NCBI GenBank assembly: GCA_022843445.1
Contig: JALHNS010000023.1
Span: 1-33,982 of the forward strand
Origin: Gemmata sp.
GTDB taxonomy: Bacteria > Planctomycetota > Planctomycetia > Gemmatales > Gemmataceae
DNA: 33,982 nt
Reading direction: 5' to 3'
The translations under genes and the position numbers were made by a program. Shown here piece after piece: positions 2,846-8,634 of the stretch (position 1 is the first letter of the stretch; the number at the start of each line of letters is the position of its first letter). Below the pieces are notes generated by a model. It searched no databases, was not told the DNA's origin, and saw only the letters and a program-made list of their open reading frames with translations.

Positions 2846-2889
2846 GACGCGAACTCCAAATAAGTCGGGGATCAGCGTGTGCGCCGCCG

Positions 2890-3750
2890 TCACACGTCGA
2901 TGACTTCAGTTTCGGGGAACGGCAGTTCTCCACGGTATACGACCCAGTTGTTCTGCCGTCGCGCGTAACCTCCACCCGTATCCGCTTCGTGGGCCTGGGC
3001 GAGCATCCCGCCGCAGACCCGGCCGAGGTAGAGAAAGGTTCTCTGGAAGGCGCACCGGGGCCAGGGTTCGGCCGCACGGTCCCACACCCGGTTGATGCTG
3101 CCGTGGGCTGCGTCCAACACCACGTCGATCCTCTTGGTGTCCCGCGTCATGTCGAAACCGCTCCCGCCATCCCAAAACTCGCCGCACACGAACAACAGTA
3201 ACCGGAAGCCTCCGACATCCAGCACACGATCCGCCAACGCGGTCGCGTCGCGAACGACCTCGCCACTGCGAGCGCGACTGCCCGCCGTGTACCACCAGAC
3301 TTTCTGCTCATGGGTTTCCCACGACTGTTCCGCTCCGACCGCGAGCAAAGTGTCTTTCGGGAGAGTAGCGGAGATTGCTCCGAGGCGTCGGTCGAGGTCG
3401 CCCAGGTCGAGATCCCCCGGCCATGAGAAGTCTCTCGTGCTGTCACCGGCCGTGGTCACGCAGCCGAAGTACCCCGCCGAGGTGAGGTAGACACAAGGGC
3501 CGTCAGTGTGGGTGGCGTCGATGGCGCGTTGGAGAAGATCGAGCCTCGCATCGACCGACGCCCCCGTACCGCGCCGAGGGTTCACCGCGACGACGCGAAG
3601 ATGCGGCCCCGACCCGGTCCAGCGTGTTCCCCCCGCACCGAACCGGGCCGTCACAGCCCATCCGAAAGCCGAGTCTGGAACCACGCGCCTCCCCGAAGAC
3701 GGGTCGTTGTGGGAGGACGCCTCCGAACACGGTGACTCGGTTTGTTTCAT
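2890..3750 (-). CDS. Nitrilase-like protein lacking the usual catalytic Glu and Lys (286 aa)
   Basis: The protein is 286 residues from an ATG at 3750 with GGAG about 10 bases upstream. The frame is open to 4158, but that extension is antisense to the divergent ATPase gene. The layout resembles the carbon-nitrogen hydrolase (nitrilase) fold. A strand HLRVVAVNP and a helix lead to YLTSAGYFG, where nitrilases have a PE-G catalytic Glu. LLAVGAEQSW follows, then a strand ending LLLFVCGEFWDGG, aligning with the catalytic Cys strand. Near the end, FQRTFLYLGRVCGGML matches the usual late helix and strand. The Glu and a clear K are absent, so it may bind rather than hydrolyse. It begins the leftward operon with the DUF262 nuclease and diverges from the ATPase operon. 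The fold is my inference, and an unrelated alpha/beta protein is the alternative. Confidence 0.55.
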   Translation of the reverse strand: MKQTESPCSEASSHNDPSSGRRVVPDSAFGWAVTARFGAGGTRWTGSGPHLRVVAVNPRRGTGASVDARLDLLQRAIDATHTDGPCVYLTSAGYFGCVTTAGDSTRDFSWPGDLDLGDLDRRLGAISATLPKDTLLAVGAEQSWETHEQKVWWYTAGSRARSGEVVRDATALADRVLDVGGFRLLLFVCGEFWDGGSGFDMTRDTKRIDVVLDAAHGSINRVWDRAAEPWPRCAFQRTFLYLGRVCGGMLAQAHEADTGGGYARRQNNWVVYRGELPFPETEVIDV

Positions 3751-3864
3751 TCCGCTGCTCCGCTTGAAACGAGAACGCGGCGAGAGACTGCTCTTATCCG
3801 CTATCAAATGCTCACGGTAATATACTGCCGACAGATTTGAACGCAGCGGTGACCGGAGGTTCCG

Positions 3865-4710
3865 ATGAACTGGTTGACCGTCGAATTGGTCGAGGGACTG
3901 CAACAGGCGATTCGTCAGGGAATGCCAGTTCACGACCACATCAACAACATCCAGCACACGACACTTGCGGGGCTGTTGGAGTACGGCTGCCTCCGGTACA
4001 CGGCTGCGAGCGACAGCCTTCCGCCGCTGCCCGCCGTAATCCAAACCAGCCCGCTCGGTCGGGCGCTTTCGGAGATCCGCTCGCCCCTCGGACTTCGCAG
4101 AAGTGGGAGCCAGAAACCCCACATTCGCAGCGTCGATACCCGCGAGGTCGAATTTCACGCATTAGAAGGAGAGAACCCGACCCTCGAACCTGCATGGGAA
4201 GACTACATGGTCCGGTTCGTCCGCTCGGCGGTCGCGGCCGGTTTCCGCCAAGTCATCGCGGATGGGATCTGCGCCACACTCCATGAGATGGCCGAGAATG
4301 TCCAGATTCATGCCGCTTCGCCCGTTGGGGCGGTCGCCGGGTATCACGTTACCCCCGGCGTGTCCGCGTTCACCATCGTAGACGTGGGAGTCGGCGTGCT
4401 TGCCAGCCTGCGCACCTGTCGGGAGTACGCACACCTCTCCCACCACGGAGACGCCCTCCAAGCCGTGTTACGGGATCACGCGAGTAAGTTCGGGCGTGGC
4501 AAGGGCGGCAACGGGTTTCGACAACTGTTCAAGTCTCTGGCCGACCAGCGCGGTGAACTCCGATTTCGCACGGGCGAGGCACGGGTGACGATGTCCGGTG
4601 AGTTGACCAACGCCCTCGGAACGGAGTCGTTCGGCGAACCCATTCCCGGCTTTCAGATCACCGTCGTGTGCCAGACTCCCGACGCGACCGCGAACCGCCC
4701 GTTGATGTAA
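3865..4710 (+). CDS. GHKL-type (HATPase) ATP-binding protein, first gene of a four-gene operon
   Basis: This 281-residue protein starts at an ATG with GGAGG at 3855-3859. Residues ~110-245 form a GHKL ATPase domain. The N box is LHEMAENVQIHA (139-150, Asn145), the G1 box VDVGVG (172-177, Asp173), and the G2/lid GRGKGGNGF (210-218). Such domains occur in histidine kinases, anti-sigma kinases (RsbW/SpoIIAB), MutL and Hsp90. No receiver, HisKA or transmembrane segment is seen, so it is probably soluble. The first 100 residues are unrecognised. It is followed at once by a STAS-like protein, and a GHKL ATPase beside a STAS protein recalls RsbW/RsbV partner switching. That functional reading is inference. 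The G2 lid is unusually glycine/lysine-rich but intact. Confidence 0.8.
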   Translation: MNWLTVELVEGLQQAIRQGMPVHDHINNIQHTTLAGLLEYGCLRYTAASDSLPPLPAVIQTSPLGRALSEIRSPLGLRRSGSQKPHIRSVDTREVEFHALEGENPTLEPAWEDYMVRFVRSAVAAGFRQVIADGICATLHEMAENVQIHAASPVGAVAGYHVTPGVSAFTIVDVGVGVLASLRTCREYAHLSHHGDALQAVLRDHASKFGRGKGGNGFRQLFKSLADQRGELRFRTGEARVTMSGELTNALGTESFGEPIPGFQITVVCQTPDATANRPLM

Positions 4711-4724
4711 TTCCGCAGTTCTCC

Positions 4725-4753
4725 TTGACTCACGGCAGCGGGCCGCATATTAT
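4725..4753 (+). promoter_or_regulatory. Sigma70-type promoter for the STAS/winged-helix gene
   Basis: TTGACT at 4725-4730 and TATTAT at 4748-4753 are separated by exactly 17 bases. This is a near-consensus promoter in otherwise GC-rich DNA. It lies between the ATPase stop (4710) and the next start, so the last three genes of the operon can be transcribed without the ATPase gene. The predicted start near 4760 would leave only 13-28 bases of leader. Confidence 0.7.
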
Positions 4754-4774
4754 CTCACTACATCGAGGTGAGAT
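4752..4774 (+). promoter_or_regulatory. Perfect 7-bp inverted repeat over the -10 element and translation start
   Basis: ATCTCAC (4752-4758) and GTGAGAT (4768-4774) are exact reverse complements separated by TACATCGAG. The left arm overlaps the -10 box and the right arm covers the GAGGTGAG ribosome-binding region and the first possible ATG (4773). It could be an operator for the winged-helix protein encoded next (autoregulation), or an RNA hairpin masking the ribosome site. Confidence 0.55.
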
Positions 4775-4787
4775 GAATGAGGTTTCC

Positions 4788-5351
4788 ATGACCATCGATC
4801 TAGCTCAGACGCTCGGCGCACGGCTCCAGGGCCGCCTGAATGGTCGTCGCGACTTTGCACGGCTTTGTGAGTTGGTGTCCACGGCCGCGCAGGGGGAGAT
4901 CATTCATCTCGACTTCACGGGCGTCGAGCTTGTGACGGGGTCTTGGGTGAACGAGGCGTTGGTGCCGCTCCTGCGCTGGGCTGCGGACGAACGGAACGAC
5001 CTCTACCCAGTATTGCAAGGTTTAAGTGACACTGTGCGGGAGGAACTCGTGTTCGTCGCGGAGGCGACGAACACACACTTCCTCGCCCTCGACCGCCGTT
5101 CCCCGCCCCGCGCCGTCCTCATCGGCTCGCTCGATCCGGGGCAGCGGGCGACCCTTGAAGCCCTGATGAAATACCCGGACGTAACCGGGGCGGAACTGGA
5201 ACGTCGGGAACCTGGGGGCGAAAAGGTTCGCGCGACTGCTTGGAATAACCGTCTCAAAGACTTGTTCGAGAAACGTCTTTTGCGGCGAGTCAAACGGGGA
5301 CGAGAACACCTTTACTCGCCGGTCGTACCGGAGGTGGTGCTGAATGGGTGA
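4788..5351 (+). CDS. STAS-like (DUF4325-type) domain fused to a winged helix (187 aa)
   Basis: Residues ~20-105 resemble the STAS-like DUF4325 domain. IIHLDFTGVELVTGSWVNEAL (38-58) fits the family pattern of a strand with LDF-GV, then a short loop and S-x-x-x-E. Residues ~114-178 form a predicted winged helix: LDPGQRATLEALMKYPDVTGAEL, a recognition-helix region around NNRLKDLFEKRLL, and a basic wing (RRVKRGREHLYSP). The protein may read a signal through STAS and bind DNA, perhaps its own promoter. The start at 4788 is preferred because GAGG lies five bases upstream; an ATG at 4773 would add five residues. The 3' end overlaps the next gene by eight bases. GHKL plus STAS genes side by side suggests an ATP-dependent switch, which is inference. 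Confidence 0.7.
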   Translation: MTIDLAQTLGARLQGRLNGRRDFARLCELVSTAAQGEIIHLDFTGVELVTGSWVNEALVPLLRWAADERNDLYPVLQGLSDTVREELVFVAEATNTHFLALDRRSPPRAVLIGSLDPGQRATLEALMKYPDVTGAELERREPGGEKVRATAWNNRLKDLFEKRLLRRVKRGREHLYSPVVPEVVLNG

Positions 5352-5736
5352 CAAGATCCTTACCGGCCAACGGACGTACCGGAGGCGGGGCCGAGAAAAA
5401 GCAAAGGACGAGTTGGGGCGACCCGACCTCTTCAGCCAACCCGACATCATCGAGCGCGAATACCCCGTGACGCCGATGCCCGGTGAGAAGCTGAACGACT
5501 GCGACGTATTCGTGGTCTACCGGGGCGACCAGCCCGACCGCGTGAACTTCGCGCGAGGCACCCACCTCGTGGGCTATTCGACCGGCGAAGCCGCCGCCCG
5601 ATTGCGGGAGGCAATGACCGAGTCAGGGCAGGAGGCCATTCGCGTGCGGGTGGTCAAGGTGTCTCCGTTCGGGTTCGGCACGGCCCGCATCGTAAAGGAG
5701 GACGACGGTGATCTCGGTCGTAAAGCGTCCGCGTGA
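5344..5736 (+). CDS. Small protein of unknown function, third operon gene (130 aa)
   Basis: I do not recognise this 130-residue protein. The N-terminus is strongly basic (YRRRGREKAKDE) and may be disordered. The rest looks like a small alpha/beta domain: strands DCDVFVVYRG and RVRVVKVSPFGFGTARIV flank a helix GEAAARLREAMTESG. It has no transmembrane segment, signal peptide or metal motif. The start ATG overlaps the STAS gene by eight bases, with GGAGG nine bases upstream. The end overlaps the following gene by 29 bases. Such tight packing between two conserved-looking genes argues that it is a real partner of the system, perhaps an adaptor binding nucleic acid through its basic arm (inference). 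Confidence 0.65.
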   Translation: MGDKILTGQRTYRRRGREKAKDELGRPDLFSQPDIIEREYPVTPMPGEKLNDCDVFVVYRGDQPDRVNFARGTHLVGYSTGEAAARLREAMTESGQEAIRVRVVKVSPFGFGTARIVKEDDGDLGRKASA

Positions 5737-6826
5737 GTCGGAAATCGCATCCAGTTGTTCGTCGTGTTTCCGGCGCACCCACTGCGGCGGGATGGACTCG
5801 GACGGCACACTTTTTCAGGACATGTCGTGCTTCGAGCGTTACTGCTGCGAGAAGCCGGACTGTCAGATGATCTGCCCGAACAACCAGTTCTGGCAGCGCG
5901 ACCTGCGCGAACTCGGCGGGCTGCGGTTCGAGGAGTTACCACGGCTCTCTCAAGCCGACGTGTCACTCCCCAATTACGTTCCGGTGATCGACCACAACTA
6001 CCGCCTGCGGGACGTGATCGACTGGCCGGTGGTGGCCTTGAAGTTGTCTGAAGTGTTCCGGTGCAAGAACTTCGTGCCGGTCGCCGAAGACGCGGCGGGG
6101 TTGAGAAAATACTTCAACCTCGCTCCGACCACCCGCATCGTGCTGCGGGGTACGGACGACGATCCCCCACTCGAACGGTACTGGCAGAACCGGCACACCG
6201 CCCGCGCCTGTGAGCGGATGGCCCGTCTCGGCATCGATCTGGTGATCGGCCCCAACTTCTCGCACGCCGCCGATGTGGTCCGCACCGAAACTCAAGGGAA
6301 TCGGATGCGGCAATTGATCTGTCTTGCTGAAATGGCGAATGCGGGGCTAACGGTGGTGCCGCACTTGAACGCGGTCGATTCCGCTGACTGGTGGTTCTGG
6401 GGGCGCTACCTCTCCGAGCAACCCGGCATCCGAGTCGTTGCGAAGGAATTCCAAACCGGCGATAAGGACACGGAAGAGGGGCGGCGTGTCATCGACCGGA
6501 TCGCAGCGATCCAAGAATCGACGGGAAAGTGTTTGCACCTGATCGCGGTCGGTGCGGCACAGTTCGCGGGGTACATCGCGCACCGTTTCGCGAGCTTCAC
6601 GATTCTGGACTCGATCCCGTTCATGCGAACGGTCGCCGGTCACCGCGAGTTCGCCGTCGAAAGCGGTGAACCGCGATGGGAGGAACGGTTCTTCGGCCCT
6701 GAAGACCCCATCGACGCGCTCTTCAGGCACAACCTCTCGCGCTACTCGGCGTGGGTGTTAGACGCGGCTCGTCTCGGACGCGGGAACCGAATCGCACTGA
6801 CTTGTTTGGGGAGTAAACGCACATGA
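5708..6826 (+). CDS. Cysteine-rich N-terminus plus predicted alpha/beta barrel (372 aa), DUF4417-like
   Basis: The gene starts at GTG 5708, supported by AAGGAGG six bases upstream, and overlaps the previous gene by 29 bases. Eight cysteines lie at residues 17, 20, 26, 41, 46, 47, 52 and 56, ending CQMICPNN. They suggest a zinc or iron-sulfur site. From ~75 on, repeated strand-helix units fit a TIM-barrel-like fold: ARLGIDLVIGPNFS, AGLTVVPHLNAVDSADW, PGIRVVAKEF, GKCLHLIAVGA and FTILDSIPFMR. The overall look recalls DUF4417 proteins and, more distantly, tRNA-guanine transglycosylase-like barrels. Neither match is certain, and I see no catalytic signature that settles it. As the largest non-regulatory member it is the likeliest effector of the operon. 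Its stop overlaps an ATG (ATGA at 6823) with GGGGAG upstream, hinting that a further gene once followed. Confidence 0.7.
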   Translation: MISVVKRPRESEIASSCSSCFRRTHCGGMDSDGTLFQDMSCFERYCCEKPDCQMICPNNQFWQRDLRELGGLRFEELPRLSQADVSLPNYVPVIDHNYRLRDVIDWPVVALKLSEVFRCKNFVPVAEDAAGLRKYFNLAPTTRIVLRGTDDDPPLERYWQNRHTARACERMARLGIDLVIGPNFSHAADVVRTETQGNRMRQLICLAEMANAGLTVVPHLNAVDSADWWFWGRYLSEQPGIRVVAKEFQTGDKDTEEGRRVIDRIAAIQESTGKCLHLIAVGAAQFAGYIAHRFASFTILDSIPFMRTVAGHREFAVESGEPRWEERFFGPEDPIDALFRHNLSRYSAWVLDAARLGRGNRIALTCLGSKRT

Positions 6827-6900
6827 TGGCGCTTGCCCCCGCAACGACCCTGAGCGCCGACGATGGTACTGTCGGCTCGCGCCACCGTGGAACGGTGAAA

Positions 6901-8298
6901 CTAGCCGTTTGCCACCAGCACTGCTGCCTGAGCTTGCTCTGCTACTTCAGCTACCACTTCGTCGTACTGCGGGATAAACCGTCGAAGGTGCGAGAACTCC
7001 GAGCGAAGGCTACCGACCAGTGCGACCAAGCGCTCAGCAGCCGCGAAACCATCGGCTACGAGGTCATCTGCCGATTTCCGCACCACTTGCCGAAACACAG
7101 CCAATACCCGCTCACTTTCTTCCACAGCGGGAAGCACTTGCTCGGCCAGTTGCCGAGGAGGGTAATTGGGATACCGGCTCGGTCGCACGAAACCGAAGAA
7201 CCGTTGGATAAGGTGTCGCTTCGTGTCATTCCCCAAGCCGCTCCACAGCAATGAAGTGGGTGGCGCGAGGGCATCTTCGGCGGGCCAATCCCCGTCTGCC
7301 TTATCCCACTGCCGAATCAAGTTCGCCTCGACAACTTGCCGTTTATCACCAGACAAGTGCGAGAAGCGGTTTGCGAAAAGGGCGAGCGGTTGAGTGTACA
7401 CCGTGCTGCGGAAGTTGGGGGCCAACTTGTTCACGAAGTAGGTCGCGTCTGCGAGCGTCTCGTTTGGTGGGAGCCGCTGCACAAGTTCTCCGAGGAATAA
7501 GTCAAGGTTCTTGCCTCGCCACGCCTTCGCAGGGACGGCCTTGAGCCGCGAGATCGTCGGGTATATTTCGATGAGGCGGCGGGCAGCATCAGACCGCTGC
7601 TCAAAATCCAACCCCTCCGCAAACGCAGCGACGAGTTGCGAAGCGTTTTGGTTCTGGTAGCACTCCGTAATTCGCTGAACGACCACGCCGTCTGCCGGCT
7701 GTTCCGGCAATGCATTTTGTTCCGGTAACGCATCGATCTTCGCACCTTGATAGGCTTGGAAGAACTCGTCAGCCGTAAAATGGACAACATTGTCCAGCGA
7801 GAGTTCCATGACGAGCGATTCGAGGTAATCGCTGAGTGGGAAGGCAGGGTCGAAGAGGAGATCCACATCAGGACCGTGGAGAACCATGACCGATTGTCGC
7901 CGGCCAGCCCGAAGTGCCTTCAGAAAGTTGTCTGTAAGGCCGGGTTTGGAGACGAAGACGCCGATGGTGCCAGCGAACTTGCCCTCAACCTTCCCAAGAA
8001 ACGCGAACAACTCCGACGCGGCCAATTCGGTCGATTCTGCCCACTTCGCTTCCATGAGAGCGTATCGCCCAGACACCCGCAGTGCGCCGTCGATTTGCTC
8101 CGACCCACCGTCCTTCGTGCGGTACGACCCTCGACAGAGCAAACCCCAAGCATCCAACACATCACGAACAAGGCGCTCGAACTCCAGTCCGCGACGTTGA
8201 GCGTGCGGCGATTTCTTGTACACGTCGGCATGAAGCTCTTGGTACGCTGCTCGCAACTCCGTGATTCGGGCCAACCGTGCTTCGGGCGTCAGGGCCAC
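6901..8298 (-). CDS. Mrr-like PD-(D/E)xK restriction endonuclease (465 aa)
   Basis: Residues ~35-130 form a PD-(D/E)xK nuclease core. Helix RRGLEFERLVRDVL carries Glu40, SEQIDGAL carries Asp70, and YALMEAKW carries Glu83-x-Lys85, followed by a strand TIGVFVSKPGL. Mrr-like enzymes cut DNA, often modified DNA, without a partner methylase. The remaining ~330 residues are helical and unrecognised, perhaps for target recognition or oligomerisation. The chosen start is GTG 8298 with GGAGG five bases upstream. A longer frame to 8475 is open but begins with low-complexity residues and crosses a hairpin. The gene converges on the four-gene operon, 74 bases from its end, and lies beside the tRNA-Gly junction. 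Base composition matches the island rather than the core genome. Confidence 0.8.
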   Translation of the reverse strand: MALTPEARLARITELRAAYQELHADVYKKSPHAQRRGLEFERLVRDVLDAWGLLCRGSYRTKDGGSEQIDGALRVSGRYALMEAKWAESTELAASELFAFLGKVEGKFAGTIGVFVSKPGLTDNFLKALRAGRRQSVMVLHGPDVDLLFDPAFPLSDYLESLVMELSLDNVVHFTADEFFQAYQGAKIDALPEQNALPEQPADGVVVQRITECYQNQNASQLVAAFAEGLDFEQRSDAARRLIEIYPTISRLKAVPAKAWRGKNLDLFLGELVQRLPPNETLADATYFVNKLAPNFRSTVYTQPLALFANRFSHLSGDKRQVVEANLIRQWDKADGDWPAEDALAPPTSLLWSGLGNDTKRHLIQRFFGFVRPSRYPNYPPRQLAEQVLPAVEESERVLAVFRQVVRKSADDLVADGFAAAERLVALVGSLRSEFSHLRRFIPQYDEVVAEVAEQAQAAVLVANG

Positions 8299-8443
8299 AG
8301 TTGCCTCCACGGTATCGCGGTTCTTGCAGACAAATCCGCGCGTTGCCGGGAGGCGAGTTCCGAGCCAACCTCGGCCACCTCCAGCGCGGACTCGCATCTG
8401 CTCAGTCACACCGATCTTGTCACAGCGGTTGTAAGATGAATCA

Positions 8444-8471
8444 GAGCCGCCGATCCTGGGATCAGCGGCTC
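8444..8471. terminator. 12-bp imperfect hairpin between nuclease gene and tRNA-Gly
   Basis: GAGCCGC-C-GATC, a CTGG loop, then GATC-A-GCGGCTC give a 12-bp stem with one mismatch. No U-run follows on either strand, so a terminator is only one reading; a protein-binding site is another. It belongs to a 265-base gene-free stretch (8299-8563). Confidence 0.35.
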
Positions 8472-8488
8472 TCAAGTTTCACCCCGAA

Positions 8489-8519: not shown

Positions 8520-8563
8520 GAAAAATCGTCGCCCTAACTGCTGATTTGGTCGAGACTTACAAG

Positions 8564-8634
8564 AGCGGGATAGGGGAGTCGAACCCCTCTCACAGCCTTG
8601 GGAAGGCTGGGCACAACCGATATACCAATCCCGC
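8564..8634 (-). tRNA. tRNA-Gly (anticodon CCC)
   Basis: On the minus strand the acceptor arms GCGGGAT and ATCCCGC pair. The anticodon stem CAGCC/GGCTG encloses the loop TTCCCAA, giving CCC at 34-36. The T-arm GGGG-TTCGACT-CCCC is intact. The 71-base gene ends in a T discriminator and CCA is not encoded. Its 3' end faces the low-GC accessory region, the usual orientation for island integration. Confidence 0.95.

Follow-up and report, generated by a model that had tools for sequence, protein, structure and literature searches.

A recurrent four-gene cassette joins a CapK/CapS-like switch to a DUF4417-related protein and may be a DNA-damage-responsive defence system

We analysed a 33,982-nucleotide stretch of a Gemmata sp. 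contig (JALHNS010000023.1, assembly GCA_022843445.1; hereafter the window), in which an earlier note, made from the sequence alone, had singled out four plus-strand genes between positions 3865 and 6826 as a candidate new system. The analysis was computational throughout, relying on sequence, profile and predicted-structure comparison. The candidate proved to be a real, operon-like unit that is conserved as a set, and its first two genes are homologous to CapK and CapS, a switch pair that is itself already known. We consider it narrowly probable that the unit is a mobile, DNA-damage-responsive defence cassette that works as proposed below, with the switch controlling a predicted HIRAN-like protein (gene 3) and a DUF4417-related protein whose predicted barrel resembles that of tRNA-guanine transglycosylase (TGT; gene 4).

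The tight packing described in the earlier note was borne out by calls of open reading frames (ORFs): genes 2 and 3 overlap by 8 bases, and genes 3 and 4 by 29. Profiles of each gene were then run over the ORFs of 17 loci. Genes 1, 2 and 4 were found in 16 of them and gene 3 in 15; gene 3 of locus L005 was recovered when the search was restricted (E 2e-5). The remaining locus, L013, is a cousin on a Streptomyces plasmid that has gene 4 alone, as a partial match by tblastn. With an additional complete locus from Rhizobium sp. CB3090 (L063), the full set is present in 17/17 loci where gene 4 is matched over most of its length (at L004 gene 1 is cut at the contig edge). The hosts are Planctomycetota, two Verrucomicrobiota metagenome-assembled genomes, and plasmids of Aminobacter, Rhizobium and Sinorhizobium (Alphaproteobacteria); because the same genes recur across three phyla, the set goes beyond chance. 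A second, divergent four-gene cassette lies in the same genome as the window (L006, 6414-9370 of contig C8). Two fragment matches were dropped (L052, 56 residues; L054, 40 residues), and three rows were redundant: L056 and L008 are one and the same stretch, L062 overlaps with L009, and L064, from Aminobacter, is a nearly identical copy. The neighbourhood survey that the note had proposed has in this way returned co-occurrence in unrelated genomes, often near defence genes.

Searches with single genes point the same way. In eight plasmid records the match spans 80% of gene 4 or more; the seven fetched are all four-gene cassettes, and in the eighth, from Aminobacter MDW-2, tblastn detects genes 1, 2 and 4. 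With gene 2 of R. phaseoli as query, 7/7 plasmid matches sit in cassettes, and one scan of genome contigs with gene 4 gave two loci. No gene 4 relatives were found in viral contigs and phage sets. A further 33 plasmid records hold shorter gene 4 matches; the seven examined (L013 and L065-L070) are all Streptomyces plasmids, mutually related, in which the context differs by annotation: a ParB/Srx-type gene is followed by a DUF4417 gene in 7/7, and amidoligase genes come after the latter in 3/7. Gene 1 also occurs outside cassettes, in five Bradyrhizobium and two S. meliloti plasmid records among 15 matches. In the three of these seven that were examined (L078, L079 and L080), gene 1 is truncated or partial and genes 2-4 are absent within 4-5 kb; we read these lone copies as remnants.

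Gene order is 1-2-3-4 in 12/17 loci, and 2-3-4-1 in three (L009, L012 and L063); in the other two (L010 and L011), genes 2-3-4 stand in order and gene 1 is convergent. Gene 2 keeps its place beside genes 3 and 4 even where gene 1 has moved or been inverted. At L010 and L011, gene 1 lies on the minus strand (7036-7875 and 7036-7935), convergent with and overlapping gene 4, at a place where the public annotations give a plus-strand hypothetical gene (7207-8106).

Profile and structure searches of the kind suggested in the earlier note gave the CapK/CapS homology of genes 1 and 2 and a TGT-like fold, in predicted models, for gene 4. Gene 1 (3865-4710, plus strand) encodes a CapK-like protein kinase of the GHKL type (HATPase_c_2/RsbW-type), with about 100 residues of its own ahead of the GHKL part. 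The N, G1 and G2 boxes, first noticed by eye, are indeed intact: N145, H149, D173, G175, G177, G215 and G217 are invariant in 16 sequences. HATPase_c_2 was matched in 10/16 family members (best E 6.7e-8), the window's own protein being without a match, and weak matches were seen to PHROG 3364 (3e-10), DrmA (3e-4) and RsbW (E 0.18). Among 58 ORFs, the family profile matches two CapK proteins (E 6e-8 and 2.6e-6) and nothing else; these yardsticks were taken as CapK from their place directly preceding CapS-like ORFs.

Gene 2 (4773-5351, plus strand, with an alternative start at 4788) encodes a CapS-like repressor made of a STAS domain and a winged helix, in keeping with the STAS-like, DNA-binding protein described from the letters alone. 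The STAS-like part matches DUF4325 (E 4e-4, under the curated cut-off), and the C-terminal winged helix matches Penicillinase_R (E 0.026, also under cut-off) and, in profile searches, CapS and MarR-type proteins. In the PDB, the best matches of the gene 2 profile are CapS structures, 9z72 (E 3.2e-4, profile positions 4-175) and 9z71 (0.014), with VapS 9z7o weaker (E 1.4); the profile also matches 5/5 CapS-like yardstick ORFs (best E 5.7e-12). Six residues, S57, T155, W157, N159, R160 and L161, are invariant in 16 sequences, the last five forming a TxWxNRL motif.

The residues on which the known switch depends are kept. S57 of gene 2 aligns to CapS S54, and N145 of gene 1 to CapK N218, both invariant in 16/16 (CapS and CapK residues were counted in the annotated proteins of L075). 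In the part of the CapK/CapS study used here (PMC13373217, EMBO J 2026), this GHKL kinase and STAS-winged-helix repressor control immune operons that are de-repressed after DNA damage, the S54A change blocks phosphorylation of CapS and strongly reduces induction, the N218A change of CapK strongly reduces phosphorylation and prevents induction, and single-stranded DNA (ssDNA) is predicted to bind CapK between its STAS and GHKL parts.

The DNA in front of gene 2 is also consistent with such control. A sigma-70-like promoter (TTGACT-N17-TATTAT, 4725-4753, plus strand, 10/12 matches) stands immediately 5' of gene 2 and is the only promoter-like site found in the span 3500-7000 of the window, where no second promoter was found between the repressor and effector genes. 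Its -10 element is abutted by an operator-like palindrome, CTCAC-N9-GTGAG (4754-4772, plus strand), the sole exact match in the window. The ORF of gene 2 can also be read from 4668, inside gene 1; since the promoter-like site and the perfect palindrome occupy 4725-4772, a start within gene 1 is unlikely, and gene 2 probably begins at 4773 or 4788, leaving 62-77 bases between genes 1 and 2.

To place the promoter against a background, the best -35/-10 score within 150 bases 5' of a fixed gene 2 codon was taken in 16 loci, scoring against the standard hexamers and not a fitted consensus, with random stretches from the same loci as null. Scores of at least 8/12 were reached in 15/16 loci vs 22% of random stretches, and at least 9/12 in 10/16 loci vs 3%; the summed best score was 140 vs a null of 111.6 (standard deviation 3.0), and 0/20000 null sums reached 140. 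For the operator, the consensus was derived from the loci tested, so the corresponding figure of 0/20000 overstates its significance. The palindrome is present at 9/10 positions or better in six of the 16 loci (the window, L055, L060, L061, L009 and L012), which come from two phyla, and always no more than two bases from where the -10 element ends. The centres of its half-sites are separated by 14 bp, by our arithmetic also the spacing of the wide CapS palindrome, TTAA-N10-TTAA, given in the part of the CapK/CapS study used (PMC13373217). There is modest support for the palindrome as the predicted operator of gene 2.

Gene 4 (5708-6826, plus strand) is DUF4417-related and joins an N-terminal cluster of eight cysteines to a barrel with a predicted TGT/DpdA fold. 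Both halves of its first description as a cysteine-rich barrel stand, and the barrel, left general there, now has the TGT as its closest relative in predicted structure. Exactly eight cysteines occur in the first 56 residues, at 17, 20, 26, 41, 46, 47, 52 and 56. Across 26 aligned sequences, the query among them, they are conserved wherever the site is covered (23/23 for the first three, then 25/25, then 26/26), and the cluster presumably binds metal. D301 is invariant in 26/26 and is the final residue of the strand 296-301; in TGTs the catalytic aspartate closes the last strand of the barrel, and D301 falls beside the aspartate of the TGT 'FDC' in an alignment that is itself non-significant. 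For the fold, the viral matches include phage TGTs/queuine tRNA-ribosyltransferases. DUF4417 (PF14386) is matched, with an E of 1 or lower, by 17/26 aligned sequences (best 1e-5); all three scores inspected lie under the Pfam cut-off, the window's gene 4 has no match, and public annotation labels several plasmid relatives DUF4417. Gene 4 has a weak match to PHROG 8680 (0.0022), and scans with PADLOC, NCBIfam and PHROGs assigned none of the four genes to a family, apart from weak matches. The role of likely effector, proposed for gene 4 at the outset, is supported.

Gene 3 (5344-5736, plus strand) had been called an unknown basic protein or adaptor. It has a basic N-terminal helix, and the rest is recast: there is modest support, from predicted models, for a HIRAN-like fold across residues of about 28-120.

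Several loci lie among defence genes. Ten neighbour proteins, chosen by hand, were scanned with PADLOC, and six matched: ZacB, ZacC and a class II prokaryotic Argonaute (pAgo) around L057, a PtuA-like protein one ORF from gene 1 at L058, and a pAgo with a helical restriction endonuclease beside L060. By annotation, the neighbours on rhizobial plasmids include DUF499/DUF1156/SNF2, OLD with UvrD, KwaB-like and NACHT genes. A class II Argonaute is the next gene 3' of gene 4 at both L057 (11049-13496) and L060 (6360-8636), and at L060 the helical restriction endonuclease partners it.

The distribution is that of a cassette that is probably mobile. A congeneric genome carries the block from 2864 to 6832 at 94.4% identity (blastn against L055); the alignment ends six bases past the gene 4 stop codon, and the 7.6 kb that follow are unrelated. 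Gene 4 matches were found in 9/397 genomes of the class (counting the window's own and one 56-residue fragment) and 4/95 of the family (own counted), and a single-sequence query gave 2/294 genomes of the phylum (own counted).

From these elements we infer a mechanism that extends to ssDNA sensing, a nucleic-acid substrate, base exchange and an anti-phage effect. At rest, a gene 2 dimer on the palindrome, overlapping its own promoter, would keep the gene 2-3-4 unit low. A signal of ssDNA or other damage, arising from phage infection or from neighbouring restriction systems, would activate the gene 1 kinase, which would phosphorylate Ser57 of gene 2; the dimer would break and the promoter open. 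The HIRAN-fold protein of gene 3 might then bring the enzyme to DNA 3' ends or single-stranded stretches, where gene 4, a TGT/DpdA-fold enzyme with its own metal-binding N-terminus, would exchange or remove bases and cripple the invader or the cell. The boldest part of this, a new immune chemistry in which a damage switch sets free a transglycosylase or glycosylase, guided by the HIRAN protein, to swap or remove bases at the ends or single-stranded stretches of invader DNA, is a tentative proposal that we think possible and do not expect. An ordinary TGT elsewhere in the host genome and two QueC matches make it probable that 7-deazaguanine precursors are available there, which does not discriminate between readings.

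A number of observations weigh against this reading. On the side of the switch, the match between the gene 1 profile and CapK spans the N box to the G1 box only, and the profile gave no match to the helix-turn-helix (HTH)-STAS part of CapK; the promoter score of L005 is 7, no better than average, and the palindrome is not clear in 10/16 loci. Every one of 443 capK genes is followed directly by capS in the part of the CapK/CapS study used (PMC13373217), whereas kinase then repressor is the order in 12/17 cassettes, the remaining five being rotated or convergent. On the side of the output, no Pfam HIRAN match was obtained in 72 gene 3 sequences, and the predicted model is modest. For gene 4, Foldseek alone ranked TGT and plain triosephosphate isomerase almost equal, the sequence link to TGT is not significant (hhalign probability 0.2%), TGT (PF01702) is absent from the Pfam scan of the 26 sequences, and a PDB search with the gene 4 profile returned nothing relevant (best E 1.6). 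The CxCx2C motif, which is the zinc site of TGTs, is found in 0/26 gene 4 sequences vs 19/20 planctomycete TGTs (those extracted from 30 TGT loci), and by strand order Asn183 occupies what we take to be the position of the base-reading aspartate of TGTs. Four of the ten neighbours (at L058, L007, L061 and L059) had no PADLOC match, in a scan with no background rate for comparison, and the left end of the shared block, 2864, rests on the 674 remaining bases of the other contig.

The main rival, possible and on balance rather unlikely, is a VapKSC-like toxin-antitoxin system, in which gene 2, besides repressing its own promoter, directly blocks gene 4 (or genes 3 and 4), and phosphorylation frees a toxic enzyme that exchanges or removes bases, perhaps on tRNA. 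TGTs act on tRNA, and the overlapping genes 2-3-4 with their sole promoter-like site would be made together like an antitoxin and its toxin; the persistence of gene 2 at the side of genes 3 and 4 in rearranged loci also fits. VapKSC itself is the precedent, as described in the part of PMC13373217 used. In contrast, gene 2 keeps a winged helix with its invariant TxWxNRL, in place of which VapS has just a short C-terminal region. The two roles of gene 2, repressor and antitoxin, could be compatible.

Less probable, and in our view improbable, is a stress or DNA-repair cassette, in which the HIRAN-like protein recognises 3' ends and the TGT-like enzyme removes damaged bases there. The HIRAN domain of HLTF and Rad5 is tied to fork repair, and the regulation is of a DNA-damage type; the boundary between stress and immunity is, moreover, blurred according to the part of PMC13373217 used. 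The patchy distribution, the discrete shared block and the defence neighbours at several loci argue against it. A classical sigma-factor partner-switching module merely adjoining defence genes, which the GHKL and STAS pair and the weak RsbW match would recall, is very improbable and was rejected: as the earlier note had also remarked, the unit has no sigma factor, and gene 2 has a DNA-binding domain of its own, its closest solved relatives are CapS and not SpoIIAA, and intact gene 1-2 pairs occurred with genes 3 and 4.

The surroundings of the cassette in the window depart in part from their first description, which placed it between two restriction-type nucleases in a tRNA-linked island. The left neighbour is indeed a GmrSD-type protein (Pfam E 7.5e-39). 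The right one (6901-8475, minus strand, 524 residues) had no match in Pfam or NCBIfam scans, and its nuclease assignment was not confirmed, the PADLOC match being weak (PDC-S02, E 0.004). The tRNA link was not supported, the shared block ending at 6832 and not at the tRNA-Gly (8563-8634). Within the block, divergent from gene 1, a minus-strand ORF (2890 to about 3720) overlaps with its 3' end the start of the GmrSD gene (2893), with which it possibly forms one operon; by eye it resembles a nitrilase-type hydrolase, and a Pfam scan gave no match.

Should the proposed cassette be confirmed, DUF4417, a family without an assigned function, would gain a likely fold, conserved active-site-like residues and testable chemistry, as far as predicted models go; the CapK/CapS switch would acquire an output of a kind new to it, in Planctomycetota, Verrucomicrobiota and Alphaproteobacteria; and the effector may act on bases, not on the backbone. 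The claim that no named system has this exact set holds for the output and not for the switch pair, which is homologous to CapK/CapS: the control is of a known kind and the output new in the literature searched, preprints and supplementary files apart, where or elsewhere the combination may already be in print.

Compared with known systems, the cassette is closest to CapK/CapS. Both encode a GHKL kinase and a STAS-winged-helix repressor with immune genes, both conserve the catalytic asparagine and the phospho-acceptor serine, and in both a promoter precedes the capS-like gene and the palindromic site has a 14-bp half-site spacing, although the operator sequence differs. The cassette is set apart by a gene 1 N-terminus unmatched to the CapK HTH-STAS part, by window genes 2-3-4 that overlap with no second promoter found, and by its HIRAN-like and TGT-fold output, which is not among the outputs named in the part of PMC13373217 used (Bub, CBASS, DUF4747, Thoeris IV, Bil, MBL and YegP). 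With VapKSC, which consists of a STAS antitoxin whose C-terminal region is short, a kinase and the VapC nuclease (same part of PMC13373217), it shares a kinase, a STAS protein with the invariant serine and an effector in a single compact operon; it differs in an effector that is a TGT-fold barrel and not a PIN nuclease (no PIN/VapC gene is among the four), in the retained winged helix, and in the additional HIRAN-like gene. The predicted fold of gene 3 recalls the HIRAN domains of HLTF and Rad5, but gene 3 is a small stand-alone protein with a basic N-terminal helix and no sequence match to them. Gene 4, for its part, differs from TGT (PF01702) in lacking significant similarity and CxCx2C and in having the eight-cysteine N-terminal cluster. 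Finally, Dpd systems also place a TGT-fold enzyme in a defence setting, and the ParB/Srx-type genes adjoining the DUF4417 cousins on Streptomyces plasmids echo the pairing of DpdA, a TGT homologue, with the ParB-like DpdB (PMC12839542, in the part used). DpdB, DpdC and other dpd partners were not found among the four genes, gene 4 is without the TGT CxCx2C, and control lies with a kinase-repressor switch; if the proposal is true, base exchange would be an induced weapon, unlike the self-mark of Dpd.

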